This document shows positions 1,820-20,436 of a stretch of 64,000 bases of DNA, in pieces; the first letter of the stretch is position 1, and every line of letters begins with the position of its first letter. A program made the position numbers and the translations under genes. The notes under the pieces were generated by a model, which saw only the letters and a program-made list of their open reading frames with translations, made no database searches and was not told the origin of the DNA. The stretch lies in NCBI RefSeq assembly GCF_013385985.1, contig NZ_JACAOY010000002.1, positions 186,001 to 250,000 on the forward strand, given 5' to 3'. The stretch comes from Pseudomonas sp. B6002 (GTDB lineage: Bacteria > Pseudomonadota > Gammaproteobacteria > Pseudomonadales > Pseudomonadaceae).

Positions 1820-1830
1820 GGTGTTTCCCG

Positions 1831-3119: not shown

Positions 3120-3676
3120 TCCGCAAGAACCCCTCCGGCGACCTGCCGGTCATTGCCGAATCGGCCTACGTCGACAAGACCGCAATCATCTGCGGCAAGG
3201 TCATCATCGGCGAGAACGTCTTCGTCGGCCCCTACGCCGTGATTCGCGCCGACGAAGTCGACGCCTCCGGTGCGATGGACCCCATCACCATCGGCGCCAA
3301 CTCCAACATCCAGGACGGCGTGGTCATCCACTCCAAATCCGGCGCGGCGGTGACCATTGGCGAATTCACCTCCATCGCGCACCGCTCCATCGTCCATGGC
3401 CCCTGCACGGTCGGCGATCGCGTCTTCATCGGCTTCAACAGTGTGCTGTTCAACTGCGCCGTCGGCGATGGTTGCGTGGTGCGCCACAACTCGGTGGTCG
3501 ACGGCCGCGACTTGCCTGCCGCCTTCTACGTACCGTCCACCACACGCATTGGGCCCAATACGGACCTGTCGCAATTCCCGCCGGTGAGTGTCAGCGCCTC
3601 GGAGTTTTCCGAAGACGTGGCACGCACCAACGTCGATTTGGTACGCGGCTACAAAGCCCTGCAAAACGAGTTCTGA
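3116..3676 (+). CDS. Gamma-class carbonic anhydrase family protein
   Basis: This 186-residue protein is built of left-handed beta-helix hexapeptide repeats (for example VIIGENVFVG and VTIGEFTSIAH). Three metal-ligand histidines are seen at 72 (VIHSK), 89 (IAHRS) and 94 (IVHGP); the five-residue spacing of the last two matches Cam-type gamma-carbonic anhydrases. It probably interconverts CO2 and bicarbonate. Gamma enzymes can use iron or cobalt, so in this zinc-economy operon it could replace a zinc beta-type enzyme; that is inference. The ATG overlaps the hisI stop (ATGA). It resembles the gene next to pyrC2/pyrQ in other pseudomonads. Confidence 0.88.
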   Translation: MIRKNPSGDLPVIAESAYVDKTAIICGKVIIGENVFVGPYAVIRADEVDASGAMDPITIGANSNIQDGVVIHSKSGAAVTIGEFTSIAHRSIVHGPCTVGDRVFIGFNSVLFNCAVGDGCVVRHNSVVDGRDLPAAFYVPSTTRIGPNTDLSQFPPVSVSASEFSEDVARTNVDLVRGYKALQNEF

Positions 3677-3678
3677 CC

Positions 3679-5016
3679 ATGAGCCGCCTGCTAATCCGCA
3701 ACGCCCGCCTGGTAAACGAAGGCCTGGAATTCGACGCCGATGTGCTGGTTGCCAATGGCCGAATCGAGAAGATTGCCAGCAGCCTCGAAGGCTACAACGA
3801 ACCGGTGGAAATCGACGCCCAAGGCCAGTGGCTGCTGCCGGGCATGATCGATGACCAAGTGCACTTTCGTGAGCCTGGCGCGCCGGACAAAGGCAGTTTT
3901 TATAGCGAATCGCGCGCGGCCGTGGCCGGTGGCATCACCAGCTTCATGGACATGCCCAACACCCACCCGGCCACCCTGAACCTGGAAGCGCTGGCCGACA
4001 AGAAGCGTCGCGCCGCCCTGCATTCGGTGGCCAACTACGGCTTCCACTTCGGGGTGAGCAACGACAACCTGGACACCGTCGCCGCCCTCGACCCACGGGA
4101 AGTGGCCGGCGTCAAAGTGTTCATGGGCGCGTCCACCGGCAACATGCTGGTGGACGACCCGCGAATACTGGAGCGCCTGTTTGCCGAAGTGCCGACCATC
4201 TTGCTGGCCCACTGCGAGCACACGCCGAGCATCCTGGCCAACGAGCAACGCCTGCGCGAACGCTTTGGCGATCACATCCCCGCCGTCGCCCACCCGCTGA
4301 TCCGCGATGCCCAAGCCTGTTATCGCTCGTCATCCTTTGCGGTGGAATTGGCCCAGCGCCACGGCACGCGCCTGCACGTGTTGCACCTGACCACCGCCCG
4401 TGAGCTGGAACTGTTCGAAGACAAACCGCTGGCCGAGAAACGCATCACCGCCGAGGTGTGCCTGCACCACTTGTTGTTCGATGACCGCGACTATCACCGC
4501 CTCGGCCATCAGATCAAATGCAACCCGGCGATCAAGACCCGCGCCGACCGCGACGCCCTGCGCCTGGCCTTGTTGAGTGATCGTCTGGACGTGATCGGCA
4601 GTGACCATGCACCGCACACCTGGGCGCAGAAACAGTTGGGTTATCGCGAAGCGCCGTCCGGGCTGCCACTGGTGCAACACGCATTGCCGGCGTTGTTGGA
4701 ACTGGTGGCTGACGGGCATCTGCCACTGACCACGCTGGTGGCGAAGACCAGCCATCGCGTGGCCGATCTGTTCGCCATTCCTGATCGGGGCTATTTGCGT
4801 GAAGGCTATTGGGCCGACCTGGTGCTGATCCAGCCCGAGCCCCAAGGCAAGCCCGTCAGCAGCCAGCCGATCCTGGCGCGCTGCGGCTGGACGCCTTTTG
4901 CCGAGCGCAGCTTCCGGCACAGCGTCAGCACCACGCTGGTGTCAGGCCACCTGGCGTGGCACAACGGCCAGGTGGTCGACAGTTGCCAGGGCTTGCCCCT
5001 GCATTTTCTGCGTTAA
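3679..5016 (+). CDS. Dihydroorotase paralogue (PyrC2/PyrQ-like)
   Basis: This 445-residue cytoplasmic amidohydrolase should close carbamoyl-aspartate to dihydroorotate in pyrimidine synthesis. Metal-site residues are His62, Lys146 (the carbamylated lysine), His178, His236 and Asp309 (GSDHAPHTW). The first His of the usual HxH pair is Gln60 (DDQVHFREPG). I recall this QVH form from a subfamily of bacterial dihydroorotases, so it is probably not a defect. ATG 3679 follows the previous stop by two bases; the frame is open further upstream but only as read-through of neighbours. As the last gene of the operon, it fits a zinc-sparing backup enzyme. Its stop overlaps the convergent gene. Confidence 0.9.
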   Translation: MSRLLIRNARLVNEGLEFDADVLVANGRIEKIASSLEGYNEPVEIDAQGQWLLPGMIDDQVHFREPGAPDKGSFYSESRAAVAGGITSFMDMPNTHPATLNLEALADKKRRAALHSVANYGFHFGVSNDNLDTVAALDPREVAGVKVFMGASTGNMLVDDPRILERLFAEVPTILLAHCEHTPSILANEQRLRERFGDHIPAVAHPLIRDAQACYRSSSFAVELAQRHGTRLHVLHLTTARELELFEDKPLAEKRITAEVCLHHLLFDDRDYHRLGHQIKCNPAIKTRADRDALRLALLSDRLDVIGSDHAPHTWAQKQLGYREAPSGLPLVQHALPALLELVADGHLPLTTLVAKTSHRVADLFAIPDRGYLREGYWADLVLIQPEPQGKPVSSQPILARCGWTPFAERSFRHSVSTTLVSGHLAWHNGQVVDSCQGLPLHFLR

Positions 5017-7238: not shown

Positions 7239-8423
7239 TCAGCGGTAGATATCTTCCCGCGTCCACGGCAATTCATGGCTGCCATCGGCGTGAGGCTTCA
7301 CCGCCAATATCTGGTGCAGGTTGATCCAGCCCCGGGCAAACGCATAGGCGCAACCGGCCAGGTACAGCCGCCAGATTCGCAGCGCCTGCTCCGGCACCAT
7401 CCTGGCTGCCGCTTCCAGATTGTCTTCCAAACGCTCACTCCAATGGTCCAGCGTGCGCGCGTAGTGCAGGCGCAGGCTTTCAACGTCCACCACTTCCAGC
7501 CCGACTTCACTGATTTCAGCGGTCATCATCGCCAGGTGCGGCAGCTCGCCATTGGGGAACACATAACGCTCAATAAACTCGCCAGCGCCACGCCCCACCG
7601 GGCGGCCATCGGTGTGCTTGGCGGTAATCCCATGGTTCATCACCAGGCCACCTTCACGCACCGCGCCGAACAGTGTCTTGCAGTACTCCGCCAGGTTGGC
7701 GTGGCCCACGTGTTCGAACATGCCCACGCTGACCACTTTGTCGAAACGTCCGTCTTGCGGCAGGTCGCGATAGTCGAGCAGTTGCAGGTCGACCTGGTCT
7801 TCCAGGCCTTCGTCTTTCACCCGCTCACGGGCTAACGCCAACTGCTCTTTGCTCAAGGTGATACCAAACACCTTGACCCCGAACTCCCGCGCCGCAAACC
7901 GCGCCAGCCCACCCCAACCACAGCCGACGTCGAGCAGATACTCGCCCGGCTGCAAGCGCAACTTGCGGCACAGGTGGCGAAATTTGTCTTGTTGGGCCTG
8001 GTCGATGGATTCGCTGCCGGTTTCAAAGTAACCGCAGGAGTACGCCATGTCCTGATCCAGCCACAGCTGGTAGAACTCGTTGGACAGGTCGTAATGGTAG
8101 GAAATAGCCGCTGCGTCAGTGGCTTTGTCGTGGATCGAGCGCACCGGACGACTCCCCTCGTCGTCTTCGATCAGGGCGTGACTCAGTTCGTCACATACCC
8201 GGATGACCTCGGCGATGGAGCCTTCCAGCTCCAGTTTGCCCTCGACGAAGGCTTCGCCCAATGAATCGAGCGTGGGATGGGTCAGCTTGGTCACGACCGT
8301 GGGGTCCTTCACCACGATGGTCACACTGGGCTCGGGGCCCAAGTTGAATTCATGGCCGTCCCAGAGTCGAAGACGCAGCGGTAGCTGAAGATTCTGTAAG
8401 GCCGGTGGAAGTTGCGCGAGCAT
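7239..8423 (-). CDS. Cyclopropane-fatty-acyl-phospholipid synthase family methyltransferase
   Basis: This 394-residue cytoplasmic, membrane-associated enzyme probably adds a methylene from S-adenosylmethionine to unsaturated acyl chains. The N-terminal lipid-binding part (about 1-115) precedes the Rossmann domain with YDLSNEFYQLWLD, SAM motif LLDVGCGWGG (about residue 170) and SVGMFEHVG (about 250). The C-terminal HYARTLDHW and RIWRLYLAGCAYAF fit Cfa-like proteins, including the bicarbonate-site region. It is the last gene of a minus-strand run from 16.4 kb. Pseudomonads often carry two or more paralogues, so I give no symbol. Its neighbour cls also remodels membrane phospholipid. Confidence 0.9.
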   Translation of the reverse strand: MLAQLPPALQNLQLPLRLRLWDGHEFNLGPEPSVTIVVKDPTVVTKLTHPTLDSLGEAFVEGKLELEGSIAEVIRVCDELSHALIEDDEGSRPVRSIHDKATDAAAISYHYDLSNEFYQLWLDQDMAYSCGYFETGSESIDQAQQDKFRHLCRKLRLQPGEYLLDVGCGWGGLARFAAREFGVKVFGITLSKEQLALARERVKDEGLEDQVDLQLLDYRDLPQDGRFDKVVSVGMFEHVGHANLAEYCKTLFGAVREGGLVMNHGITAKHTDGRPVGRGAGEFIERYVFPNGELPHLAMMTAEISEVGLEVVDVESLRLHYARTLDHWSERLEDNLEAAARMVPEQALRIWRLYLAGCAYAFARGWINLHQILAVKPHADGSHELPWTREDIYR

Positions 8424-8510
8424 GAGTAGTCCCCCCTTGTTTCAGACGTCTGGAGTGAGGGTAGACCATCCGAAGACAAAGTAGGAGGCTATCGATTTGA
8501 TAGCGTTCCT

Positions 8511-9299
8511 CTATGGGGCTCGGCGCTCGAGCAAACCGTCCTGGATCCACTGTTTCAGCCACGTCACCGCTTGCAGTGGCGCACCCTCTGCATAAGTGAC
8601 TAGCAACTGCTCGCACAGTTCTGAAAAATTCCAGCCAGTGGTCACCATCCCGGCTAGCGCACACGCCTCGGCGGGTTCCAGGCTGCGGTAATGGCACACA
8701 TTCTGGTGACGCCACACCAGGCAAACCTGCGGCAGTGCCAGGGCCTGGCTGTCGGGGAAGTCCGACTCATCCTTGCTGGCACGCCAGATCGCCACACTGT
8801 TGAAGTGGCACAGCCTCTGCTGCACCGACGGCGCCAAACTCACCTGCAGGCCTGGCCACTCTTCAGGCGCCAGTTGCGCCATGTCATTGAGGGTCAGAGG
8901 CTCGCCCTGCGGCGCATCGAACGCCAGGGTGAATGCCCATTCCAATCGCGCCAGCTCGGCCAGCGGTGCGCTCTGTTCAGCCACCAGGTGCTCCATGATA
9001 AACGCCGGAAAACGCTCACCCAACCAGCGCAGACTGTAATGGGCAGACGGGTAGCGGCGTACGTAGGCACGGGTCAGCACCTCAAATTCGTCATCCCCCA
9101 GCCAATACCAGATGGCGCCGAAGTCATGTCGCAACACCTCCTGCAACCGCGACACGTAGGCGTTGTGATAAATCGCCAGGCCCGTGTCCACATCCAGCGT
9201 CGGCCCGCCCAACAACGTGGCGGCGAACCCACTATTGGCGACGGAATTCTCGGATAACAGGTGCTGTTCGAACGCCAGCTGCCAATCGGTCAGGCGCAT
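8511..9299 (-). CDS. bufC: BufC/HvfC-like DUF2063 protein, partner of the MNIO maturase
   Basis: This 262-residue protein begins with the DUF2063 domain (LTDWQLAFEQHLL; then IYHNAYVSRLQEVLRHDF, about residues 64-81). The family acts as a RiPP-recognition partner that presents the precursor peptide to the DUF692 enzyme; older annotations call it a DNA-binding domain. It overlaps bufB by ten bases, so the two are translationally coupled, consistent with a heterodimer. The C-terminal half is variable, as in other members. The symbol follows bufferin nomenclature and rests on context. Confidence 0.85.
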   Translation of the reverse strand: MRLTDWQLAFEQHLLSENSVANSGFAATLLGGPTLDVDTGLAIYHNAYVSRLQEVLRHDFGAIWYWLGDDEFEVLTRAYVRRYPSAHYSLRWLGERFPAFIMEHLVAEQSAPLAELARLEWAFTLAFDAPQGEPLTLNDMAQLAPEEWPGLQVSLAPSVQQRLCHFNSVAIWRASKDESDFPDSQALALPQVCLVWRHQNVCHYRSLEPAEACALAGMVTTGWNFSELCEQLLVTYAEGAPLQAVTWLKQWIQDGLLERRAP

Positions 9300-10138
9300 A
9301 ACGACCTCCTGGCCAATGCCGAAGCCCCCAGTTCACGGGCCTTGCCCAGCTCGGTGAGCAGCTCTTCGAACGGCGGAAAATGGTCGTCGCGCTCCAACAA
9401 GGTCGACACCGGTCCCAGGTGCTCCAACGTCTGCTGGTACAACGCCCACACCGGATCGCACACCGGGTGGTCATGGGTATCGACCACATAGTCGCCGTAG
9501 TCCATATGCCCGGCCAGGTGCAGTTGGCGGATGCTGTCAGGCGGCAAGTTGCGGATGAACGTCCAGGCATCGAACCCATGGTTGCGCGAGCTGACGTACA
9601 CATTGTTGACGTCCAGCAACAACTGGCAGCCCGTCAGGTGAGCCAGCGCGTTGAGAAATTCCCACTCGGTGAATTCATCGGCCTTGGAGCGCACGTAACT
9701 GGAGACATTTTCCAGCACCAACGGGCGCTGCAACACGTCTTGCACTTGGCGTACACGGCCGGCCACGTGGTACAGGCTTTCTTCGGTGTAAGGCAGGGGC
9801 AGCAGGTCGTGCAATTGATGGGCGCTGCCGCGGCTCCAGCACAGGTGATCGGACACCCACGCCGGTTGGATGCGCTGGGCGAGTTGTTTGAGCTGTTTCA
9901 GGTAATCGGTATCGAGGGCATGGGGTCCGCCGATAGACAGGGACACGCCATGCATCACCAGGGGATAGCGCTCGGCTATCGCGTCCAGGTAGTACAAGGC
10001 TTTGCCGCCCTGCACCAGATAATTCTCGGAGATCACTTCGAACCAATCCACGGCCGGCGACTGTTCAAGGATCTGCTGGTAGTACTCACTGCGTAGACCC
10101 AGGCCATAACCCAGGCTCGGAAGAGAAGCGGACATCAT
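9290..10138 (-). CDS. bufB: MNIO (DUF692) peptide-modifying oxidase of a bufferin operon
   Basis: This 282-residue TIM-barrel enzyme is a multinuclear non-heme iron oxidase. Family metal-ligand segments are visible: MHGVSLSIGG, VSDHLCW, LENVSSY, LLDVNNVYVS, HLAGH, DTHDHPV and LLERDDHF. Such enzymes modify cysteines of a precursor peptide, to thiooxazole-type heterocycles in bufferins. The gene follows bufA after a 64-base gap holding a hairpin, and overlaps bufC. Two adjacent ATGs (10138 and 10135) are possible; AGGAG three or six bases upstream slightly favours the second. The likely substrate is the Cys-rich peptide at 10203-10457. Confidence 0.92.
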   Translation of the reverse strand: MMSASLPSLGYGLGLRSEYYQQILEQSPAVDWFEVISENYLVQGGKALYYLDAIAERYPLVMHGVSLSIGGPHALDTDYLKQLKQLAQRIQPAWVSDHLCWSRGSAHQLHDLLPLPYTEESLYHVAGRVRQVQDVLQRPLVLENVSSYVRSKADEFTEWEFLNALAHLTGCQLLLDVNNVYVSSRNHGFDAWTFIRNLPPDSIRQLHLAGHMDYGDYVVDTHDHPVCDPVWALYQQTLEHLGPVSTLLERDDHFPPFEELLTELGKARELGASALARRSLCA

Positions 10139-10157
10139 TCACTCCTGGGCAAAGTGT

Positions 10158-10185
10158 CCGCAGCGGTGGGGGGCATCCGCTGCGG
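10158..10185 (-). terminator. Intercistronic hairpin between bufA and bufB
   Basis: CCGCAGCGG and its perfect complement CCGCTGCGG enclose a ten-base loop. No T-tract follows, so it looks like an attenuator or mRNA 3'-end stabiliser rather than a full terminator. It would let the precursor be made in excess over the maturation enzymes. Confidence 0.7.
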
Positions 10186-10202
10186 GAGCACTCGGTTGCC
10201 GG

Positions 10203-10457
10203 TTATTCGCCGACGGTACCGCCAGCCTTGGTGCAAGCATCAGCGCTGGCTTGTACTTTGAAGCCCTGGCCTTTGCAAGAACCCTGGCCTTTGCAAGCGT
10301 GGTCCTTGGTTTTGCAATCGTTCTGGCCTTTGCAGGCGTTGATGCCGTAGCAGTGCACAGACATGTCAGCGGCTTGAGCCTGAGTGACAACACCAGCAAA
10401 CATGGTAGCGGCGGCCATTGCGAGGGCGGCACCAGCAGCAGCGGATTTGAAGTTCAT
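10203..10457 (-). CDS. bufA: Bufferin-type Cys-rich metallophore precursor peptide (BufA2-like)
   Basis: This 84-residue precursor has an Ala-rich signal peptide (about 1-30, TQAQAA/D), so the product acts in the periplasm. The core carries six cysteines (36, 42, 48, 55, 61, 75) in repeats of the form (N/G)(A/S)CKGQ, with ACKGQG and SCKGQG back to back at 54-65. Bufferins are RiPPs whose cysteines are oxidised by an MNIO enzyme and which then bind copper in the periplasm. The CKGQ-CKGQGF pattern is how I remember the BufA2 subfamily. It is followed by bufB and bufC on the same strand. No ECF-sigma/anti-sigma pair is nearby. Confidence 0.9.
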   Translation of the reverse strand: MNFKSAAAGAALAMAAATMFAGVVTQAQAADMSVHCYGINACKGQNDCKTKDHACKGQGSCKGQGFKVQASADACTKAGGTVGE

Positions 10458-10573
10458 TTTTGTATCCTCATGATCGGTAGGGGTGTCGGTCCAAACGGAT
10501 TGTTCAGTCTCGACATACCACTAGAGTGAGGTCCCTCATCGGCGTTACAGCCGTGTGCAAATATTTCTGAAAA

Positions 10574-12460
10574 TTATTCGTCGAGCTTCAAAAGCGGCTC
10601 CTGAAAGCGTAGCAAACGCCCGGCGTTACCCAGCACCAGCAACGTGCTGAGGTTATGCAACACCGCTGCGATCATGGCGCCCGCCGCGCCCAACCAGCCA
10701 AATGCCGCAAATACCACGATGGCCAGCGTCCAGCCCAGGCCGATGATCACGTTGACCTGCAGCGTCTGCCGGCACTGGCGGCTCAAGCGCACGCAAGTGC
10801 CCAGGCGACGCAAGTCACTGCCAATCAGCACCACGTCTGCCGACGCCAGGGCGATATCCGCCCCGCCCGCCCCCATCGCCACGCCCACCACCCCGGCCTT
10901 GAGCGCCAGGGAATCGTTGATCCCATCGCCCACCACCATCGGGCGGAAGCCGTTGCCGATTTCACCCAGCACCCGGTTGAGCTTGTCTTCCGGCAACGCC
11001 TGGGCCTCGACATCACTGATGCCCACGTCCAGCGCCAAGTTGTCGGCCACGCTCTGGCGGTCGCCCGTCAGCAGCAATTGCCGGCCCAGGCCCAACTCCC
11101 GCAACTCTTGCAGGGCTTGGCGGGCTTCCGGCTTGACGCTGTCGGCCAGCAGCAACCAGGCGAGGAACTGCCCGTCCAGCGCCAGCCCGGCAATCGGGCC
11201 ATCGTGATTCGGCACCGCAGTGGTGACGATGCCCAACTGCTCGAACAACTCCGGGCGCCCCAACGCCGCTTCGCCCTGCTCGGTCTGCGCCACCACACCA
11301 AGGCCCTGGCGTTCGCGAATATCCGTGAGCACCAGCAGCTGTTCCTGGGTCGCCAGCCCTGCCAACGCCCGGCTGACCGGGTGACTGCTGGCCGACCCCA
11401 GGCTGGCCGCTAGATTCAGCAGCACCTGGCGATCCGGTGCGCGCGTCTCGATCGATTGCAGGCGCAGGGTGCCGTAAGTCAGGGTGCCGGTCTTGTCGAC
11501 CACCAGGGAGGTCAGGTCGGCCAGCTCTTCGAGGAACGCCGAGCTGCGAATCAAAATCCCATGGCGCGCCGCTACCGCAATCCCGGCAATTGCCGTGGCC
11601 GGCGCCGACAGCACCAACGCGCACGGGCACGCAGCGACCAACACCGCCAGCATTGCCTGCGCGTCGTTGGTCACAAACCAGGTCACCGCCGCCAGCAACA
11701 ACACCAGCACCATATAGCTGCCGGCATAACGCTCCAGCAGCCGCGTGATCGGCGGCTTGGAACGCTCGGCGTTCTGCATCAGTGCGATGACTTTGCCCAG
11801 GGTCGACTCATTGCCGGTGCGGGTCACCTGCAGGCGCAGCAGGCCATCCAGGTTGATCGCCCCGCCAAACACCTGCACGCCAACGCTGGCCTCCAGCGGC
11901 ACCGACTCGCCGGTAATCGGCGCCGTGTCCAGGCTCGCCTGGCCGGACAGCACCACACCGTCGGCGGGCACGCGGTCGCCGGCACGCACTTCGACGATAT
12001 CGCCGGTGTTCAGCGTGCCGTTATCCACTTCAACAATGCTGCTGTCGGCCTGCACCAACCGCGCATGGCTGCGGGTCAGCTTGCCCAACGCGTGGATCGC
12101 TTCCTGGGAACCGATCACGCTGCGCTCTTCCAGCACATGGCCGAAGATCATGATGATCGGCAGCAACGCAGCAGTCAGCAGATCACCCGTGGCCCACGCG
12201 CCCATCATCGCCAGGGCAATCAACTGGTCGGTGATGCCATGCAGGCTCGGGTAACGCAGGCTGTACCAGGCCGAACGCATCACCGGCACGGCCACCAGCA
12301 ACGAGGCCACGCCCAGCAACAGTTGGCTGACGCCAGTCTGGTCCGGTGCCAGCCAGCGCCACACCAGCCCCAGCACCAGCAAACCCAGGGCCAGCATGGC
12401 CAGGGTCAATTGCCGGGCAGCACTGCGCTGCTCGGCGGAAGTCAGCATGGGTGCGCTCAT
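10574..12460 (-). CDS. Heavy-metal P1B-type ATPase without N-terminal metal-binding domain
   Basis: This 628-residue cation pump shows the actuator motif TGES (183-186), the membrane CPC triad (278-280), the phosphorylated DKTGT (322-326) and a C-terminal GDGINDS loop. It lacks CxxC heavy-metal domains at the N-terminus. The last transmembrane region has HNLSTLLVLGN, where Zn pumps have Asp-Thr-Gly and Cu pumps have Met/Ser residues, so the ion is not obvious. It overlaps the upstream SPFH gene (ATGA) and is the last gene of that four-gene unit. The bufferin precursor follows 116 bases downstream on the same strand. Metal efflux linked to the SPFH proteins is inferred. Confidence 0.9.
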   Translation of the reverse strand: MSAPMLTSAEQRSAARQLTLAMLALGLLVLGLVWRWLAPDQTGVSQLLLGVASLLVAVPVMRSAWYSLRYPSLHGITDQLIALAMMGAWATGDLLTAALLPIIMIFGHVLEERSVIGSQEAIHALGKLTRSHARLVQADSSIVEVDNGTLNTGDIVEVRAGDRVPADGVVLSGQASLDTAPITGESVPLEASVGVQVFGGAINLDGLLRLQVTRTGNESTLGKVIALMQNAERSKPPITRLLERYAGSYMVLVLLLAAVTWFVTNDAQAMLAVLVAACPCALVLSAPATAIAGIAVAARHGILIRSSAFLEELADLTSLVVDKTGTLTYGTLRLQSIETRAPDRQVLLNLAASLGSASSHPVSRALAGLATQEQLLVLTDIRERQGLGVVAQTEQGEAALGRPELFEQLGIVTTAVPNHDGPIAGLALDGQFLAWLLLADSVKPEARQALQELRELGLGRQLLLTGDRQSVADNLALDVGISDVEAQALPEDKLNRVLGEIGNGFRPMVVGDGINDSLALKAGVVGVAMGAGGADIALASADVVLIGSDLRRLGTCVRLSRQCRQTLQVNVIIGLGWTLAIVVFAAFGWLGAAGAMIAAVLHNLSTLLVLGNAGRLLRFQEPLLKLDE

Positions 12461-13491
12461 TGTTCGGCTCCCTGAATGATCAAGCGGGAGTCGTCTTTAG
12501 GATCGACCGTGGTCACCGAGCCGGCCTGGCCGAGAATCTTCGGCAAGCGCTCGCGGTACAGGCGCAACAGCAAGCCTGGGTCTTTGACCTGGGCGAGGCT
12601 GGCGACCGTGGCAGTTTGCGCCTGAGCATTGGCCAGGCGCTCGCTGGCCTGGGCATGGGCCACCTGCACCAGACGGTCGGCTTGCTGGTTGGCGGTCTGG
12701 GTGAGTTTTTCGGCGTCGGTGCGCGCATTGGCCACGGCTTTGTCGGCCTGCTGGCTGGCGGTCAGCACCGCGTTGAAGGCATTCACCGCCGGGCCCGGCA
12801 GGCTCGATTGCACGTCGACGCGGGTCACCTCGATGCCGAGTCCAAGGCCCGTCGAGGCCAATTCAGCCAAGCGCTGATTGATGCCTTGTACCAAGTCACC
12901 GCGCAGCCGCTCACGGCGCTCGGCGGCGCCATTGTCGGTGCCGATCAGCTCGGGACGCGCCACCAGAATAGTGTCCAGGTCACGGGCCGCCGTCAGGGCC
13001 ACGGCGCTGCGTGTCACCAGGCGATCCAGCGCTGGCAACACATGCTCGCCCTGCAGCACAAACGCGTAGGGCTCGGTGACTTTGTAGAACACCCGCACAT
13101 CCAGCTGCACCACGCCGGCGTCACCGGTCAGCAGGTAACCGGAGCCGGCCAAGGCGTCGCTCAACGGCGTGGCAAAACTGGCAACCCGGTCGGCCTGGAT
13201 CGCAGTGTCGGAACGCAGCAGGTTTTCTACCCGGCGCTCGATCACACGGTCGGCGGCCGGCAGCAACACAACCTGTTCGAACGGTTGCGGCCAGGCCAGT
13301 AACAGGCCGGCATTCTGAATCCGGTCCAGGGCGCCGAAGTGCAGCACCACGGCGCGGTTCTGCGGGTCGATCTGGCGCACATTGGAAAATGCCCAGGCCA
13401 ACGCCGCCAGCACGGTCACCGCGTACAGCGCCAGGAAGGTCAGGCGCCCGGCCTGGATCCAAGGGCTGTCCGGGCTGTCACGCTCGGTCAT
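12457..13491 (-). CDS. SPFH membrane protein, HflK/HflC-like (third of three)
   Basis: This 344-residue protein has one N-terminal transmembrane helix (about 16-36), then an SPFH/band-7 domain (VLHFGALDRIQNAGLLLAWP onward). A long Ala/Gln-rich coiled coil (about 235-300, VANARTDAEKLTQTANQQAD) follows. True HflK/HflC enclose FtsH from the periplasmic side; this gene is far from hfq-hflX and is instead coupled by four-base overlaps to another SPFH gene and to the P-type ATPase. It may build a cage or membrane microdomain around the pump. That role is inference; no FtsH gene is present here. Confidence 0.85.
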   Translation of the reverse strand: MTERDSPDSPWIQAGRLTFLALYAVTVLAALAWAFSNVRQIDPQNRAVVLHFGALDRIQNAGLLLAWPQPFEQVVLLPAADRVIERRVENLLRSDTAIQADRVASFATPLSDALAGSGYLLTGDAGVVQLDVRVFYKVTEPYAFVLQGEHVLPALDRLVTRSAVALTAARDLDTILVARPELIGTDNGAAERRERLRGDLVQGINQRLAELASTGLGLGIEVTRVDVQSSLPGPAVNAFNAVLTASQQADKAVANARTDAEKLTQTANQQADRLVQVAHAQASERLANAQAQTATVASLAQVKDPGLLLRLYRERLPKILGQAGSVTTVDPKDDSRLIIQGAEQ

Positions 13492-14480
13492 GGCTGGACG
13501 TCCTTCGGCCCGTCCACCAAGGCACGGAACGGCGCAGCATCGGTACGCAGGATGATCTTGGTGCCCGGCGTCACCACCGTGCCCAACGTATCCAGGGAGC
13601 GCAGCAGGTTATACAGCTGCGGGTTCCCGGCGTAGGCACGCCCATAAATCTGCGCCGCCTCGACCCGCGATTGCGCCTCGATATCGGCGGCTTTCACCGT
13701 GGCATCGGCTTGCACAATGCGCGCATCACGCTCGGCAGCCGAACGGATCTGCGCCGCTTCACGCTTGCCCACGGCAGTACGCTCGGTGGCGATGGTTTCA
13801 CGCTCGGCGCGCATGCGGTCGACGGTGGCGGTGAGCGTCACCGACGGCAAGGTCAGGCGCTCGATGCCCACTTGCGCCACACGCACGCCATAGGTGGTGA
13901 GCAATTGTTGATCAATCTGCTGACGCAATTGCGCTTCGAAATCAGCGATGCGCACTTGGCTGGCGTCGGTGTTGATCAGGCTGGACAGGTCAAAGCTGGC
14001 GGCGGTGGTTTCCAGCGCCGAGCCGACGAAAGTGCGAATCTGCCGCGCCGCTTCATCCGGCTGGTTCTGCACCGCGCGCATAAAGCGCTGCACATTGTCG
14101 GCGTCGCCCTGCACCTGCCACGCCACGTAAGCCTGCACGATGATGCGCAGGCCATCGCGGGTGCCCACGTCCTGCAAACCGCTGGAGGTGGTGCGCAGGC
14201 GCAGGTCCACCGGAATCGCCGCCTCGAACGGCGCCGGCCAACGCCAACCCAGGCCCGGTTCCAACAACACACGGGACGGGTTGCCGAAGCGGGTAATCAC
14301 CGTGGCCTCGCCGGAACGCACTTGCACCAGGCTGGCGGCCGCTACGGCAAACAGCACCAACAGCACGGCCCACGCCATGCGTCGCCAAGGGAACGGGCCG
14401 GCTGCCTGTTCATCCCCGTGATGATGGTGGTGATGGCCATGATGGTGATGATGACCGTGATCGTGAGAATGAGCGCTCAA
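13488..14480 (-). CDS. SPFH membrane protein with a 14-histidine N-terminus (HflC/HflK-like, second of three)
   Basis: The start is TTG at 14480 with AGGAG eight bases upstream. The 330-residue product begins with a stretch holding 14 His in the first 21 residues (runs at 10-14 and 16-21), then a transmembrane helix (about 33-51), an SPFH domain (GEATVITRFGNPSRVLLEPGL) and a coiled coil (about 215-285). By HflK/HflC topology the His tail would face the cytoplasm, where it could bind Zn, Ni, Co or Cu. The SPFH body resembles HflK. Overlap with the next SPFH gene is four bases. The His tail next to a metal pump is the most telling clue to function. Confidence 0.88.
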   Translation of the reverse strand: MSAHSHDHGHHHHHGHHHHHHGDEQAAGPFPWRRMAWAVLLVLFAVAAASLVQVRSGEATVITRFGNPSRVLLEPGLGWRWPAPFEAAIPVDLRLRTTSSGLQDVGTRDGLRIIVQAYVAWQVQGDADNVQRFMRAVQNQPDEAARQIRTFVGSALETTAASFDLSSLINTDASQVRIADFEAQLRQQIDQQLLTTYGVRVAQVGIERLTLPSVTLTATVDRMRAERETIATERTAVGKREAAQIRSAAERDARIVQADATVKAADIEAQSRVEAAQIYGRAYAGNPQLYNLLRSLDTLGTVVTPGTKIILRTDAAPFRALVDGPKDVQP

Positions 14481-14492
14481 CAGACAGACTCC

Positions 14493-16418
14493 TTATTGAA
14501 CGGCTTTACGCGGCACCGAAGGGTCGGCCGGCAAAGTAAAAGAACGTAGATCGATCGTCGGCGCGCCGTCGGCACCCAGGCGATGATCCAGAATAAGCAG
14601 CTTGGCGTGGGCCAGGCCTTGGCTGAGCTGGCCGAGATATTGCTCCAGCACGAACGCCTGGCCGGCGGTGGCGTAGGCCTTTTGTTCGGCGGCAAAGCGC
14701 AGGTCCGCCGCTTGGGCGCCAGCGTTCACTTCACGCGCCGTGGCCTGGGCCTCATCGCGTACGGTGCTGGCCTGCAGCAGGGCCTGGTTGGTCTGCTCGC
14801 TGGCCGCGCCACGTTCACGGGAAATCAGCGCCTGGGCGCCGATCTGCGCCGCTTGCACCCCGTGATAGGCGTTGGCGGCACCCGCCGGTGGGTGAATCGC
14901 TTCCACCACCGTGGCGAGAATTTCGACACCACTGTCGAGCTTTTGCAGGTCGGCCTGCACGGCGCGGCCGATTTCATCAGCTAGGCGTGTGCGTTGTTCA
15001 CCGAGCAATTCGTCGAGGGTGCGCGAGGCAAAGTCGTGGACGAGGATGCGGCTGGCGGTGCTGCGGATCAGGGTCGGCACATCCGCGCTGTTGTAGGTGG
15101 CGGCGAGTGCAGCACGGTCAGTCAGGCCGATGCGGTAGACGAACCGCACGTCCATGTTGACGATCTGGAAGCCCTGCTTGTCGCCGCTGCTGCTGGCGAT
15201 GACCTGGGATTTGTCATTCACATGGCTGGCGTCCCACAACCGGTTGGCGATCAGCGGGGCCGGGCCTTCGGCGGGTGCCAACTCAGGGGTGGAGGCTTCG
15301 CTGACGCTGGTCGCCAACTCATGCACCACGCCGTTTTCCACCTTCAGCACCCGGCCCAGCGGCCACGGCAACCCGGCGTGCAGACCGGGGCCGAACACTT
15401 CCACGGGTTTGCCAAAGCGCTCATAAATCCCACGGCCTTGCAGGGGCACTTCATGCACGCCGGTCAAAGACCAGCCCACCGCCAGCACGACCAGCAGCAC
15501 CGGCAGAAACGCCCGGCGCATGTAGGTAAATGCCCAGATCTGGCGCAGATCGATACCGAAGCGGTTGTGCAGTTCGTGCTGCAAGGCCAGCAGGGGTTGC
15601 GGCGGCCAGCGCAGCAGCCCGGCGATAAAACTCTGCGCCATCAGGCGCGGTTCGAGGCGTGGCTGGCGTGGGCTGAACAGCGACAGCACGGCCCGCAGCA
15701 AAAACTCCACGGCCACCAGCCCCGGCAGCAGGCCGACCAGCACGGCCAGGCGCAGCTGCCACACAGACTCCGCACCGGCAAACAGCAAACAAAGCGCACT
15801 GACCACCAGGCAGGTAATCGCCACCCGGCTCAATTGCGCCAGTGGCGAAGCTTCCGGCCATTGGGCAACGGATTCCTGGGCCAGGCGGCGCTCAAACACC
15901 AGCAAGCCGAATGCCAAGGCCAACGCCAGCGCGGCACCGATGCTTGCCGATTGGCCGACGGGCGCAGCGGGCAAGGCCAGGTTCCAGAACTCAATAAGGC
16001 TGACCAGCGCCAGCAACGACCAACCCGCCAGCCACAGCACTGGCGCGCCAATCTGGGCCAGCAGGCCACTGCGCAAACGCCCGACAAGGCGCGAGTACCC
16101 GCCAACCTCATCGGCGGGCGGCTCGATCAGTGGCTCGGCAGGTTCTTCCAGCACCTGGGCACGCCAATCAGCCACCCACCACGCCGATTGCAAGCCGGCC
16201 ACCAGCACCAGCAGCGCCGACGAACACGTGATCAACACCACCGGCCAGATCGACAGCGGGGCAAACAGGGCAACAAACAGCGCCAGTATCCAACCGGCCA
16301 CGGCCAGGGTTGTCAGGCTGATGCCGGCTTGGCGCAATCGACGGGCGTGAAACACCCCCTGTTGAAAACGCGGAAGGCCTTCCACCGAAGCGCCGTCAGC
16401 TTCCAGATCCACTTGCAT
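14493..16418 (-). CDS. Long SPFH protein with a polytopic N-terminal half (HflK-like, first of three)
   Basis: This is about 641 residues. The first half (to about residue 320) has several hydrophobic segments in pairs. The second half is an SPFH domain (HEVPLQGRGIYERFGKPVEVFGPGLHAGLPWP) followed by a coiled coil rich in Ala and Gln. Normal HflK proteins are about 400 residues with one helix, so the polytopic N-terminus is an unusual addition. I prefer ATG 16418; a GTG at 16439 would add seven residues. It is the first gene of the unit, twelve bases before the His-rich SPFH gene. I do not recognise the N-terminal part. Confidence 0.8.
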   Translation of the reverse strand: MQVDLEADGASVEGLPRFQQGVFHARRLRQAGISLTTLAVAGWILALFVALFAPLSIWPVVLITCSSALLVLVAGLQSAWWVADWRAQVLEEPAEPLIEPPADEVGGYSRLVGRLRSGLLAQIGAPVLWLAGWSLLALVSLIEFWNLALPAAPVGQSASIGAALALALAFGLLVFERRLAQESVAQWPEASPLAQLSRVAITCLVVSALCLLFAGAESVWQLRLAVLVGLLPGLVAVEFLLRAVLSLFSPRQPRLEPRLMAQSFIAGLLRWPPQPLLALQHELHNRFGIDLRQIWAFTYMRRAFLPVLLVVLAVGWSLTGVHEVPLQGRGIYERFGKPVEVFGPGLHAGLPWPLGRVLKVENGVVHELATSVSEASTPELAPAEGPAPLIANRLWDASHVNDKSQVIASSSGDKQGFQIVNMDVRFVYRIGLTDRAALAATYNSADVPTLIRSTASRILVHDFASRTLDELLGEQRTRLADEIGRAVQADLQKLDSGVEILATVVEAIHPPAGAANAYHGVQAAQIGAQALISRERGAASEQTNQALLQASTVRDEAQATAREVNAGAQAADLRFAAEQKAYATAGQAFVLEQYLGQLSQGLAHAKLLILDHRLGADGAPTIDLRSFTLPADPSVPRKAVQ

Positions 16419-16439
16419 CCACTCAACGCCCGTTAACAC

Positions 16440-16754
16440 ACAATTAGTTACGATATAACACGGAGCGTGAAATTTTTGTCCGAATACAACGTAAATCCCC
16501 TGTGGGATCAGGCTTTTGTGGGAGCTGGCTTGTCGGATCGCCGCACCGCTGCGATGGCATCGACTCGGTGCAGCTGATAAACCGAGGTGCCTGCATCGCT
16601 GCGGTGCGGCGATCCGACAAGCCAGCTCCTACATAGCGCTATCACTGTGACTAAACCCCCATAAACACGAGCCATCACTGGTGCAGGCCGTGATTAATCG
16701 GCACACTCCGAAACAGTTTTTCGCGGGTCCACGGACAAGGAAGCGTCACCCCCC
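16440..16754. other. Intergenic region between divergent SPFH and lipid operons
   Basis: The 315-base gap holds the REPIN at 16517-16633. On either side are about 77 and 120 bases that must contain the promoters of the two divergent operons. I see no convincing sigma-70 boxes or operator palindrome there. Confidence 0.6.
16517..16633. repeat. REPIN (inverted REP pair)
   Basis: TGTGGGAGCTGGCTTGTCGG on the left is matched by CCGACAAGCCAGCTCCTACA on the right, with GATCGCCGCACCGC/GCGGTGCGGCGATC as further complementary arms. The core differs from the 7123 element (TTGTCGGATCGCC rather than TTGCCTGCGATAG), so it belongs to another REP subgroup. Confidence 0.92.
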
Positions 16755-17375
16755 ATGATTTCGATCTATCAACTCAAACCGCGTTTTCAAAACCTGCTGC
16801 GCCCGCTTGTGCAGCGTCTCTACGACAATGGCACCACGGCCAACCAGATCACCGTGCTGGCCGGCGTCGTATCCTTGCTGGTCGGCGCACTGATCGCTGC
16901 ATTTGCCCAACATCTCTGGCTGTTCGCGCTGATCCCGCTGTGGATGATCCTGCGCATGGCCCTCAATGCCATCGACGGCATGCTCGCCCGGGAATTCGGC
17001 CAGCAGTCGCGACTGGGCGCCTACCTCAATGAATTGTGCGACGTGATCGCCGACAGCGCGTTGATCCTGCCGTTTGCGCTGATCCCCGGTGTCAGCCTCA
17101 TTCCCGTGCTGCTGGTGGCGCTGCTGGCGGTTTTCAGCGAATACGCCGGCGTGCTCGGGCCGATGGTCGGTGCGTCACGCCGTTACGACGGGCCCATGGG
17201 CAAGAGCGACCGGGCGTTCGTACTCGGCGTGCTGGCCACCGGCGTCGCCCTGGGCTGGCTGGGTGCCGGCTGGGTCAACACGGTGATGTGGCTGGTCGCC
17301 GCCCTGCTCGCCTACACCTTGGTCAACCGTGTGCGCCAAGGCCTCAAAGAAGAACACCCCTCTCCGATTGCATAA
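16755..17375 (+). CDS. CDP-alcohol phosphatidyltransferase family protein, YnbA-like
   Basis: This 206-residue polytopic membrane protein should transfer a phosphatidyl-type group from a CDP-linked lipid to an alcohol. The family motif is present but altered: Asn71, Asp74-Gly75, Ala78-Arg79, Gly88, Asn92, Asp96. Two of the four canonical Asp are thus Asn, with an extra Asp at 100. I recall the same Asn pattern in E. coli YnbA, so it may define a subfamily with a different acceptor. It is the first gene of a six-gene operon that also supplies a CDP-lipid synthase, an acyltransferase and a phosphatase. The substrate is unknown. Confidence 0.88.
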   Translation: MISIYQLKPRFQNLLRPLVQRLYDNGTTANQITVLAGVVSLLVGALIAAFAQHLWLFALIPLWMILRMALNAIDGMLAREFGQQSRLGAYLNELCDVIADSALILPFALIPGVSLIPVLLVALLAVFSEYAGVLGPMVGASRRYDGPMGKSDRAFVLGVLATGVALGWLGAGWVNTVMWLVAALLAYTLVNRVRQGLKEEHPSPIA

Positions 17376-17386
17376 GGATTTTTGCG

Positions 17387-19135
17387 ATGCGCGAACAGCA
17401 AGAGCACACCTTCAGTACCCATGATGGCGTCGAGGTTTTCTACCGCCACTGGCCGGCCACGGACACCACCGGGCCGCGCCAGGCGATCCTGCTGTTCCAT
17501 CGCGGCCACGAGCATTCGGGACGCATTGCGCACCTGGTGGATGAACTGAACCTGCCGCAATTCGACTTCTTTGCCTGGGACGCCCGTGGTCACGGCCAGT
17601 CGCCCGGGGAGCGCGGCGACAGCCCAAGCTTCGCCACCAGCGCCCGCGACGTGCAGACCTTCTGCGACCACATCGGCGCCACCTACGGCATTGAGGCAGA
17701 AAACCTCGCGGTCATCGCCCAAAGCGTCGGCGCCGTGATCGCCGCCACCTGGGTGCACGATTACGCGCCGAAGATCCGCGCGCTGGTGCTCGCCTCCCCG
17801 GCCTTCAAGGTCAAGCTGTACGTGCCCTTCGCCCGCCCGGGCCTGGCGCTGATGCGCAAGTTTCGCGGCAATTTTTTCGTCAACAGCTACGTCAAGGCCA
17901 AGTTCCTCAGCCATGACCCGGAGCGTGTAGCCTCCTACGACAGCGACCCGCTGATCACCAAGGCCATCTCGGTGAACGTGCTGCTGGGCCTGTACGAAGC
18001 GGCCGACCGTGTTGTCGCCGATGCCCAGGCGATCCAGGTGCCGACCCAAGTGCTGGTGTCTGGCGCCGACTTCGTGGTGCACCGCAAACCCCAGCAGCAG
18101 TTTTTCGACCGCCTCGGCAGCCTGAAAAAAGAGCTGCACATTCTCCCGGGTTTCTTCCACGACACCCTCGGCGAACGCGACCGGGCCACCGCCGTGAGCA
18201 GCGCCAGGCGCTTTATCCTGCAGAACTTCAGCTACCCGCTGGACCGCGCGTCCTTGCTGGATGCCGACAAGCTGGGCGCCACCTGCGCCGAATCCGAAGC
18301 CCTCGCCGCACCGCTGCCGCGCAATTCCCTGCGCGACCTGTACTGGCGCCTCACCCGCGCCAGCATGGGCCTGGGCAAAAGCCTGTCGGACGGCGTGAAG
18401 CTGGGCTTCGACACCGGCTTCGACTCTGGCAGCACCCTGGACTACGTGTACCGCAACACCCCCACCGGCAAGGGCGGGCTGGGGCGGATGATCGACACCA
18501 ACTACCTCAACTCCATCGGCTGGCGTGGCATTCGTCAGCGCAAGTTGAACGTCGAGGAGCTGCTGCGCCTGGCCATGGCCAAGTTGCGTGATGAACGCCG
18601 TGAAGTGCGCATCGTCGATATCGCTGCCGGCCATGGGCGTTACATCCTCGAAGCCTTGCAGGGCGTTTCGCCGCTGCCGGAATCGATCCTGCTGCGCGAC
18701 TACAGCGACATCAACGTGCGTGACGGTGGCGCGCTGATCCGCGAAAAAGGCCTGGGCGATATCGCGCAATTCGTCAAAGGTGACGCCTTTGATCGCGCCG
18801 ACCTCGCGGCGCTGGACCCCAAGCCGACGCTGGCGGTGGTCTCCGGGCTGTATGAATTGTTCGCCGATAACGGCATGGTCGGCGGCTCCCTGGCTGGCCT
18901 GGCTGAGGCCGTAGAAGCGGGTGGCTATCTGGTCTACACCGGCCAGCCCTGGCACCCGCAACTGGAACTGATCGCTCGCGCCTTGACCAGCCACCGCCAG
19001 GGCCAGGCCTGGGTGATGCGCCGTCGCAGCCAGTCGGAAATGGACCAACTGGTAGAAGCTGCCGGCTTCCGCAAGATCACCCAACGCGTGGATGAGTGGG
19101 GCATTTTCACCGTGTCCCTGGCGCAGAAGATCTAA
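17387..19135 (+). CDS. Fused alpha/beta hydrolase and SAM-dependent methyltransferase, YnbC-like
   Basis: This 582-residue fusion has an N-terminal alpha/beta hydrolase (about 1-275) with probable triad Ser113, Asp228 and His258; the nucleophile elbow is AQSVG instead of GxSxG. A linker and a C-terminal class-I methyltransferase (about 390-580) follow, with motif I VDIAAGHGRY. ATG 17387 is eleven bases after the upstream stop with AGGA before it; the longer open frame upstream is only overlap with the first gene. The hydrolase resembles monoglyceride lipases, so a lipid ester or head group is a plausible substrate. The methyl acceptor is not known. Confidence 0.9.
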   Translation: MREQQEHTFSTHDGVEVFYRHWPATDTTGPRQAILLFHRGHEHSGRIAHLVDELNLPQFDFFAWDARGHGQSPGERGDSPSFATSARDVQTFCDHIGATYGIEAENLAVIAQSVGAVIAATWVHDYAPKIRALVLASPAFKVKLYVPFARPGLALMRKFRGNFFVNSYVKAKFLSHDPERVASYDSDPLITKAISVNVLLGLYEAADRVVADAQAIQVPTQVLVSGADFVVHRKPQQQFFDRLGSLKKELHILPGFFHDTLGERDRATAVSSARRFILQNFSYPLDRASLLDADKLGATCAESEALAAPLPRNSLRDLYWRLTRASMGLGKSLSDGVKLGFDTGFDSGSTLDYVYRNTPTGKGGLGRMIDTNYLNSIGWRGIRQRKLNVEELLRLAMAKLRDERREVRIVDIAAGHGRYILEALQGVSPLPESILLRDYSDINVRDGGALIREKGLGDIAQFVKGDAFDRADLAALDPKPTLAVVSGLYELFADNGMVGGSLAGLAEAVEAGGYLVYTGQPWHPQLELIARALTSHRQGQAWVMRRRSQSEMDQLVEAAGFRKITQRVDEWGIFTVSLAQKI

Positions 19136-19137
19136 GC

Positions 19138-20436
19138 ATGCGCGAACCCGGCCTGTTGAAGCCCGCCGTCCTGTGGCTGCTGGTGTTGGCACCGCTGTTT
19201 TTCAGCACCTACGGCTTTGCCACGTGGGTCACCAGCCAGCGCAGCGACGTCGGCACCCTGGTGTTCGACTGGGAAACCCACATGCCCTTCTGGGCATGGA
19301 CCATCGTGCCCTACTGGTCCATCGACCTGCTCTACGGCTTTTCCCTGCTGCTGCCCAATACCCGCCATGAACTCAAGCAGCACGCACTGCGCTTGCTGAG
19401 TGCACAGGTGATCGCGGTGAGCTGCTTCCTGATCTGGCCGCTGCGTTTCACCTTCGAGCGGCCCGAGCTGGACGGTGTGTTCGGCTGGTTGTTTGCAGTA
19501 CTGGCAGGGTTCGATAAGCCGTTCAACCAGGCGCCGTCGCTGCATATCGCGCTGCTGGTGATCCTGTGGGTGATGTACCAGCGCCATGCCCAAGGGCTCT
19601 GGCGTTGGTTAGTGCATGGCTGGTTCGCCTTAATCGGGATTTCGGTACTGACCACTTATCAACATCACTTTATCGACTTACCCACAGGCGCCCTCGCCGG
19701 CTGGCTGTGCGTGTGGTTATGGCCGGTGGAGCATCGCAGCCCATTGTTGAATGTTCAGCTGACGCGGGACGTACAACGCTGGAAAATCGGCGTGCGCTAC
19801 GGCCTGGGGGCGGTGCTCCTGGTGATTCTGGCCTGGGTGCTGCGCGGCGCCTGGCTGTGGATACTGTGGCCGGTGGTTTCCCTGGCGTTGATCAAGGCCA
19901 ATTACTTCGTGCTCGGTGCTTCAGGCTTCCAGAAGCGCGCCGATGGCCGACTCACGCCCGCCGCGCGTTGGTTGTACGCACCGTACTTGGCGGCCGCGTG
20001 GATCAATTCACGCCTGTGGACACGCAAGCATCCACAGCCGGACCTGATTGTGGATAACGTTTGGCTCGGGCGCATTCCTACAACGAACGAGCAGGCGCCC
20101 TTCAAGGCAATCGTCGATCTGTGCGCCGAATTACCGATTAATCCACAGGGCCGCGCCTATCAATCCATTCCTGTGCTGGACCTGATCGCGCCCACGCCCG
20201 CCGAATGCCTGCAGGCTGCGCAAGCCATCGAACGCCTGCGCTCACACGGCCCGCTGCTGGTGTGCTGTGCCCTCGGCTATTCGCGCAGCGCCACTGCCGT
20301 GGCCGCCTGGCTGATGCACACAGGTCGCGCCAGCACGGTGGACGAGGCACTGGCTATTATTCGTACAGCGCGGACCCAGGTGGTCCTGCACCCCGCTCAC
20401 CGCGAAGCTTTGGAGGGTTTGCCCCATGCCCGCTGA
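19138..20436 (+). CDS. Membrane PAP2 phosphatase fused to a dual-specificity phosphatase, YnbD-like
   Basis: This 432-residue protein joins two phosphatases. The N-terminal polytopic PAP2 domain shows PSLH (133-136) and the STTxxQHHFxD-type motif ending at Asp180. The C-terminal cytoplasmic domain has a Cys-X5-Arg loop at Cys377-Arg383 (CALGYSR), as in dual-specificity or phosphoinositide-type phosphatases. ATG 19138 starts two bases after the upstream stop. In a pathway with a CDP-alcohol transferase it could dephosphorylate a phospholipid phosphate, as PgpA or PTPMT1 do for PGP. That is inference. It overlaps the next gene by eleven bases. Confidence 0.88.
   Translation: MREPGLLKPAVLWLLVLAPLFFSTYGFATWVTSQRSDVGTLVFDWETHMPFWAWTIVPYWSIDLLYGFSLLLPNTRHELKQHALRLLSAQVIAVSCFLIWPLRFTFERPELDGVFGWLFAVLAGFDKPFNQAPSLHIALLVILWVMYQRHAQGLWRWLVHGWFALIGISVLTTYQHHFIDLPTGALAGWLCVWLWPVEHRSPLLNVQLTRDVQRWKIGVRYGLGAVLLVILAWVLRGAWLWILWPVVSLALIKANYFVLGASGFQKRADGRLTPAARWLYAPYLAAAWINSRLWTRKHPQPDLIVDNVWLGRIPTTNEQAPFKAIVDLCAELPINPQGRAYQSIPVLDLIAPTPAECLQAAQAIERLRSHGPLLVCCALGYSRSATAVAAWLMHTGRASTVDEALAIIRTARTQVVLHPAHREALEGLPHAR

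Follow-up and report, generated by a model that had tools for sequence, protein, structure and literature searches.

In Escherichia coli, HflK and HflC, two proteins of the SPFH family, form an assembly of 24 alternating subunits around FtsH hexamers on the periplasmic side, with the C-terminal part capping the chamber (PMC12048511). A second described system, the hmtA cluster of Pseudomonas aeruginosa PAO1 (PA2439-PA2438-PA2437-[PA2436]-PA2435), has three SPFH genes followed by a P-type ATPase gene (PMC4542158); its published naming is HflK-family, HflC, HflC-family and P-type ATPase, and it is described as Zur-responsive. We found the same order at 10574-16418, minus strand, of the window, by which we mean the whole 64,000-nt stretch of Pseudomonas sp. 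B6002 analyzed here (contig NZ_JACAOY010000002.1, positions 186,001 to 250,000). Four genes encode three diverged HflK/HflC-like SPFH proteins, called SPFH1, SPFH2 and SPFH3 in order of transcription, and a CPC-type P1B ATPase. This operon is a member of a published, barely described cluster and is not itself new, the likeness to the PAO1 cluster being one of gene order and of zinc response as published rather than of aligned sequence. New here is the tightness of the unit, in which three SPFH proteins are paired obligately with a single P1B ATPase, over several families and on plasmids; we found no description of this pairing, together with the conserved His tail reported below, in the openly licensed PMC literature.

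The cluster has been treated in two separate literatures. Zinc papers, in which the SPFH genes are mentioned only briefly, regard hmtA as an unusual importer and the neighboring SPFH proteins as FtsH modulators, the name given to PA2439, PA2438 and PA2437 (PA14_33070, PA14_33080 and PA14_33110) in PMC9431628. The same three proteins are PaFlo5-7 of a 2026 SPFH paper, which gives them no zinc role: the word "ATPase" is absent from its main text and "zinc" occurs once, in a sentence on FtsH (PMC13086221). No paper containing both "SPFH" and "HmtA" was found in the openly licensed PMC literature. A first-pass annotation of the window had described three consecutive, different HflK/HflC-like SPFH genes followed, with a four-base overlap, by a CPC-type P1B ATPase gene, and the coordinates, Band_7 matches and TIGR01525 and TIGR01512 matches agree with it. 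Its further statement that no description of such a unit was known is not borne out, given the hmtA cluster, whose order matches and for which Zur control and increased levels under zinc depletion have been reported (PMC4542158, PMC8531726, PMC11761036).

We searched 200 genomes of the genus, that of B6002 among them, with E limits of 1e-20 for SPFH1 and 1e-160 for the ATPase; each was found in 119, and the two sets of genomes are identical. In every one of these, both genes lie on one contig and one strand, separated by 2026-2226 nt (median 2129). In a draw of 398 genomes from the phylum, searched with a profile for SPFH1 at 1e-40 and with a single protein for the ATPase at 1e-110, both were present in the same 11 genomes. 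Three of these lie outside Pseudomonadaceae; the unit is complete in all three, with a stop inside SPFH2 in one of them. A family draw gave 9 positive genomes out of 99, from 3 of 19 genera, and the genus of G589, which we take to be the aeruginosa group, gave 13 of 25; none of 368 other genomes in the class draw was positive. These counts refer to the best three candidates per genome in the class and phylum searches and the best six in the genus searches, and the draws of 200 and 398 genomes overlap. The ATPase thresholds of 1e-160 and 1e-110 were chosen by us; the weakest match was 2.2e-241 in the genus, for a contig-end fragment, and 2.1e-261 in the phylum. The SPFH paper reports the trio in two of ten other Pseudomonas species (PMC13086221), compared with 119/200 same-genus genomes here.

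Gene order is as constant as presence. All 40 fetched same-genus loci show the same order of the four genes, as do 79 of 80 named loci (drawn from 443 stretches encoding a relative, all Pseudomonas, and overlapping in part with the 40) and all 13 loci outside Pseudomonadaceae, several of which are near-identical. The exception, L134, is a 3.3-kb contig that ends just past SPFH1. Ten of 72,556 plasmid records matched at E up to 1e-30 (seven from Rhizobium and one each from Klebsiella aerogenes, Paraburkholderia sprentiae and Burkholderia ubonensis), and all ten have the four genes in order, by annotation in five and by tblastn in every record. Several plasmid copies are near-identical, so that the ten are not all independent of one another; the Klebsiella and Burkholderia copies have transposases nearby. 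The joint occurrence of the four genes on plasmids of three classes (alpha-, beta- and gammaproteobacteria) marks them as a module. SPFH1 and the ATPase show correlated pairwise distances (r 0.96, 78 loci), which shared descent alone could give. Mere chromosomal synteny was rejected, as flanking genes differ between lineages and on plasmids.

The first-pass annotation had proposed that the SPFH proteins are coupled to the pump as a cage or microdomain and had named a lack of conserved linkage as one outcome that would refute this. A survey of SPFH1 and the ATPase found linkage conserved in 119/119, 11/11 and 13/13 cases, and on this evidence the trio looks like a dedicated partner of the ATPase. 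A contrary explanation is that the trio organizes membrane microdomains generally and has only a promoter in common with the ATPase, in keeping with the general scaffold roles given to SPFH proteins and with the unchanged growth in lysogeny broth (LB) of a paFlo5-7 deletion in PA14 (PMC13086221). We consider such hitch-hiking very unlikely given the exact co-occurrence and order over families and on plasmids with different flanks. To judge by the wording of its main text, moreover, the SPFH paper reports no zinc test of the trio deletion.

Some copies of the unit are broken. L209 has one in-frame stop in SPFH2, G034 (L064) has SPFH1 in two frames and L157 has a short SPFH3 frame; single stops are listed within SPFH1 (G672 and G663) and the ATPase (G088). 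These are either decay or assembly error.

Table 1. Genes, motifs and regulatory site of the SPFH-ATPase operon, in window coordinates.
Feature	Position	Strand	Remarks
SPFH1	14493..16418	-	641 aa from ATG; seven-transmembrane N-terminal region (about residues 1-321), then HflK-like SPFH/Band_7 region
SPFH2	13488..14480	-	330 aa, TTG start; HflC-like, one transmembrane segment; 12-nt gap to SPFH1
SPFH3	12457..13491	-	344 aa; HflK-like; 4-nt overlap with SPFH2 (13488-13491)
P1B-type ATPase (HmtA-like)	10574..12460	-	628 aa; 4-nt overlap with SPFH3 (12457-12460)
Zur-box-like site	16446..16460	-	minus-strand reading TGTTATATCGTAACT; core GTTATATCGTAAC at 16447-16459; 28 nt upstream of the SPFH1 ATG
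His-rich tail of SPFH2	14418..14480	-	14 His in 21 residues; cytosolic if topology is HflC-like (by homology only)
CPC motif of ATPase	11621..11629	-	residues 278-280; invariant in 17/17 aligned
His-Asn pair in last transmembrane segment of ATPase	10652..10657	-	residues 602-603; invariant in 17/17; His602 aligns with ZntA Asp714

All three SPFH proteins score above the cut-off of Pfam Band_7 (PF01145) and miss those of the equivalog models TIGR01932/TIGR01933 (SPFH2, 94.6 versus 134.4; SPFH3 and SPFH1, 92.7 and 59.8 versus 159.4). In profile comparisons with solved structures, the best match of SPFH2 was HflC (E 2.4e-20, HflC residues 193-323), while SPFH1 and SPFH3 matched HflK (7.8e-11 and 2.4e-10), and in each protein the similarity extends into the C-terminal, chamber-forming part. 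On these comparisons the trio would assemble like HflK/HflC, and the cage-like role proposed in the first-pass annotation is favored since the similarity reaches that part. A recent local duplication of hflK/hflC was considered and rejected, with only 20-30 percent identity in local matches among the trio and to the HflK-like protein of the same genome; by sequence, the trio is three different lineages.

SPFH1 has seven transmembrane-like segments by alignment-averaged hydropathy (21 sequences), which bears out the polytopic N-terminal half noted in the first-pass annotation. The Lys/Arg sums of alternate loops (4.7, 5.7, 1.3 and 9.4 versus 0.1, 0.7 and 0.4) suggest an inside N-terminus and an SPFH region outside, in the periplasm; of the inside loops, the third is weak. 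No Pfam family matched this N-terminal region (best E 2.5). A GTG 21 nt upstream would give a protein of 648 aa; aligned relatives start at the ATG. The alignments used here (A2, A3 and A4) comprise the window together with 20, 19 and 16 loci, respectively, chosen from the 79 named loci that are complete.

The absence of FtsH from the locus, also seen in the first pass, agrees with a single PF01434 match in the genome, on another contig. Published work nevertheless raises the explanation that the trio are alternative FtsH modulators, which under zinc shortage would take the place of HflK/HflC on the zinc metalloprotease FtsH, or compete with them for it, the ATPase being merely co-regulated. 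They are so named in PMC9431628, an interaction with HflB is pointed to in PMC11761036, the trio does match HflK/HflC models, below equivalog cut-offs, and there is one FtsH in the genome. This is a live rival, which we judge unlikely on several grounds. The ATPase clade never occurs without SPFH1 in the 200- and 398-genome draws at the chosen thresholds, which co-regulation alone does not demand, and the genome keeps two neighboring Band_7 genes, one of them HflK-like, elsewhere. The scores also fall far under the HflK and HflC equivalog cut-offs, and no FtsH is annotated in the five annotated plasmid regions. From the exclusive pairing we infer that the client of the trio is the ATPase and not FtsH, and it is on this linkage that the main argument for our preferred explanation rests.

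The 14 His among the first 21 residues of SPFH2, remarked on in the first pass and confirmed by counting, belong to a conserved feature. All 119 Pseudomonas loci have such a tail, with 6-20 His (median 15), as do 12 of 13 loci outside Pseudomonadaceae; these N-terminal counts hinge on start codons chosen by position, and the two Pseudomonas sets overlap, so that some genomes are counted twice. We place the tail in the cytosol, tentatively, on the sole basis of the topology that we take HflC to have. The SPFH2 start codon is TTG in 107 of 119 Pseudomonas loci and GTG in the other 12, with ATG in none at the chosen start; in the seven Rhizobium plasmid copies and L207 it is ATG. This conserved weak start codon may set subunit ratios.

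A His tail of its own, with at least five His at the chosen start, is found on the ATPase in 10 of 116 Pseudomonas loci (119 were examined, of which three had no recognizable core). Such tails are also present in the seven Rhizobium plasmid copies, L207 and the Klebsiella and Paraburkholderia copies, and absent from the Burkholderia copy, L208 and L209.

The ATPase passes TIGR01525 (525 versus 346.25 bits) and TIGR01512 (488 versus 313.5) and has no Pfam HMA-domain match, so the N-terminal HMA domain expected of the ZntA type was not found. The CPC motif and the LHN stretch also occur in 13/13 loci outside Pseudomonadaceae. Lys693 and Asp714 are functionally important in ZntA. In the ATPase these positions, with ZntA residues counted on the 4umv alignment, are Thr578 (beside a three-residue alignment gap) and His602, both invariant in 17/17 sequences.

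These replacements bear on a further explanation, in which the ATPase is an exporter that in zinc shortage clears a competing metal, for instance copper, or serves to supply the periplasm, the His tails gathering cytosolic metal for export. The CPC motif is present, and the SPFH2 tail would, with HflC topology, lie in the cytosol where an exporter loads; a review further holds that PIB1-ATPases export (PMC3817396). With Thr578 and His602 in place of Lys693 and Asp714, the ATPase departs from the standard ZntA exporter; a Zur-type site and a setting among uptake genes suit import better, and a review reports that overexpression of P. aeruginosa HmtA raised cell zinc and copper (PMC10393844). 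We regard export as a live rival and as somewhat unlikely.

The first-pass annotation overlooked the Zur-box-like site in front of SPFH1 and the genes for zinc uptake with which the window opens, and thereby the likely metal. We scored upstream regions against a Zur consensus, using a core of 13 bases with 12 scored positions within 250 nt upstream of SPFH1. A core of at least 10/12 is present in 95 of 124 upstream regions versus 19 of 2480 shuffles, and one of at least 9/12 in 121 of 124 versus 162 of 2480. The distance from core to ATG is variable (26 to 111 nt in most loci) while the core itself is kept, and the two loci of the same class and other families, L208 and L209, have TGTTATATGGTAACA and TGTTATATGATAACA. 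Five rhizobial loci (L207, L219, L224, L226 and L228, three of them near-identical) share the palindrome GATACGTAATAACGTATC upstream of SPFH1, which was not seen in L220, L225 or L227; it resembles what we take to be the rhizobial Zur box and is a possible rhizobial Zur site.

Within its own genome, the operon site fits the pattern TGTTATANNRTAACA with one mismatch. Nine places match with 0-1 mismatch, one being that of this operon, and three precede a DksA/ZigA operon, a FolE2 gene and a ZnuD-like receptor. At up to two mismatches, counts of 19 and 13 compare with 17 and 15 for the reversed control, so weak matches, being no commoner than in the control, mean little. A scan for sigma-70 promoters found none, against 0.9 expected in shuffles, and no Rfam match to a structured RNA leader reached the gathering score within window 8000-19000.

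The window begins inside a zinc-starvation island (window 285-5016, extending upstream in L197), which encodes an AztA-like ATPase, an ABC-3 permease, a ZnuA-family protein, HisI and an amidohydrolase, and adjoins FolE2, ZigA and a DksA gene. Genes of this island occur in the available flank of 49 of 80 named loci, and the operon on the Paraburkholderia plasmid has a zinc ABC transporter cluster in front of it. A Fur-family gene stands beside a ZnuA-family gene on the same contig, a pair that is likely Zur and znuA. From the Zur-box-like site and the zinc-uptake genes, zinc is the likely metal; the operon looks like a Zur-regulon, zinc-starvation operon with predicted Zur binding, and under such control the ATPase would serve zinc acquisition. 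By eye, the amidohydrolase is PyrC-like, and the island also has a hexapeptide protein that appears gamma-carbonic-anhydrase-like.

Work on P. aeruginosa is consistent with a zinc response. In a znuA mutant, RNA of PA2439, PA2438, PA2437 and PA2435 (hmtA) was up 9.0-, 10.6-, 14.4- and 5.6-fold; the Zur site predicted there is weak (PMC4542158). In an electrophoretic mobility shift assay Zur bound the promoter of PA2439 (PMC8531726), and zinc depletion raises the cluster proteins (PMC11761036). Overexpressed HmtA raises cell zinc and copper, a result for which the review asks confirmation (PMC10393844).

On balance, we think it somewhat probable that the operon, as part of the Zur regulon, encodes a dedicated HflKC-like assembly housing an HmtA-type ATPase for zinc uptake. 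When zinc is scarce, Zur would leave the promoter and the four genes would be made together. The HflC-like SPFH2 and the HflK-like SPFH1 and SPFH3 would then come together on the periplasmic side of the inner membrane as a ring or dome of HflK/HflC-like build, enclosing or anchoring the HmtA-type ATPase rather than FtsH. Such an assembly could keep a zinc pool confined in the periplasm for the pump and hold the pump at a stable site in the membrane, and the cytosolic His tails of SPFH2, in some lineages joined by those of the ATPase, could receive or buffer incoming zinc in place of the missing HMA domain. The shape of the assembly, its contact with the ATPase, inward transport, and the side and role of the tails are all proposed conditionally, the weakest steps being ATPase contact, transport direction and tail side. 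That HmtA is an importer rests, according to reviews, on Lewinson 2009.

In a bolder form, which we put forward only tentatively and think rather doubtful, the three-subunit SPFH assembly would be the obligate housing of a single P-type ATPase, with a periplasmic zinc-trapping dome, an inward pump and a cytosolic His brush as acceptor. If so, the roughly 15 His per SPFH2 copy would amount to well over a hundred in a ring as large as that of HflK/HflC. The SPFH assembly would be dedicated to a metal pump, not a protease, which could explain import by a P1B ATPase.

Several observations weigh against the proposed zinc-uptake assembly. The unit is missing from 81 of the 200 same-genus genomes, and no test of physical contact between SPFH proteins and the ATPase was found in the openly licensed PMC literature. 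The Klebsiella SPFH2 is the exception to the His tail (1 His in 40), and charge counts near the SPFH2 transmembrane segment are indecisive on the side of the tail (2.4 versus 3.2 Lys/Arg). As to Zur, some of the 9-of-12 core scores are off-register (L059, L082, L084 and L115), three of 124 regions score under 9/12 (L064, where the region lies inside the split gene, L120 and L148), and the best core of the Rhizobium, Klebsiella, Paraburkholderia and Burkholderia copies reaches only 7-9 of 12. Among eight of the nine own-genome sites with 0-1 mismatch that were examined, one precedes a siderophore-type TonB receptor and three have no evident zinc gene. In the published work, hmtA mRNA did not respond to added zinc (Ducret 2021; PMC8531726), a 2022 review has Zur binding all uptake promoters save that of hmtA (PMC10393844), and in proteomics p was <0.05 only for PA2438, with data-dependent acquisition (DDA), and 0.423 for PA2437 (PMC11761036). 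Inward transport itself is disputed, given the view of Arguello 2013 that PIB1-ATPases export only (PMC3817396).

Immediately 3' of the ATPase gene on the same strand (window 8511-10457) are genes for a bufferin-type metallophore BufA2, the maturase BufB and an HvfC-like protein, the last under its cut-off, all found in only some related loci. Between the operon promoter and the divergent gene, window 16517-16633 holds an imperfect inverted repeat with 53-nt arms (85 percent) that looks like a repetitive extragenic palindromic (REP) element. The divergent cluster at 16755-20436 may represent an unusual phospholipid pathway: it encodes a CDP-alcohol phosphatidyltransferase, an alpha/beta hydrolase-Methyltransf_20 fusion and a protein whose C-terminal domain is a dual-specificity phosphatase.

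Compared with the PAO1 hmtA cluster, the window operon differs in having no PA2436-like gene. Six of the named loci (L082, L085, L087, L090, L091 and L115) have a gap of 660-695 nt between SPFH3 and the ATPase, where PA2436 would lie, and that of L082 contains a 150-aa open reading frame at 7242-7694 with no Pfam match. These gap-bearing relatives presumably belong to the aeruginosa group; the 80 named loci include no named P. aeruginosa locus. ATPase identity is 81-82 percent to P. citronellolis, P. panipatensis, P. delhiensis and Pseudomonas sp. 30_B. The His tail, the seven-transmembrane domain and the obligate pairing are not mentioned in the published passages on the hmtA cluster.

With ZntA-type pumps, which we take to be class P1B-2, the ATPase has in common the P-type core and CPC in M6, and it differs in the HMA domain, Lys693 and Asp714. 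With the CoaT-type structure 7qbz, presumably of class P1B-4, it shares a His in the last transmembrane segment, the motifs there being SPC and HEGST versus CPC and HNLST here. By this motif pattern, neither the ZntA nor the CoaT signature fits.

Relative to E. coli HflK/HflC around FtsH (PDB 7vhp, 7wi3 and 9cz1), the trio belongs to the same SPFH family, with one HflC-like and two HflK-like members, and the SPFH region of SPFH1 is predicted to be periplasmic, as in the E. coli proteins. It differs in having three subunits, one polytopic and one His-tailed, and in scores under the equivalog cut-offs. Joining the two literatures would give a concrete function to three orphan SPFH proteins and a possible answer on the direction of HmtA transport. 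In place of action on FtsH, the trio genes are encoded alongside the ATPase, a conserved case of an SPFH assembly that would serve a metal pump.

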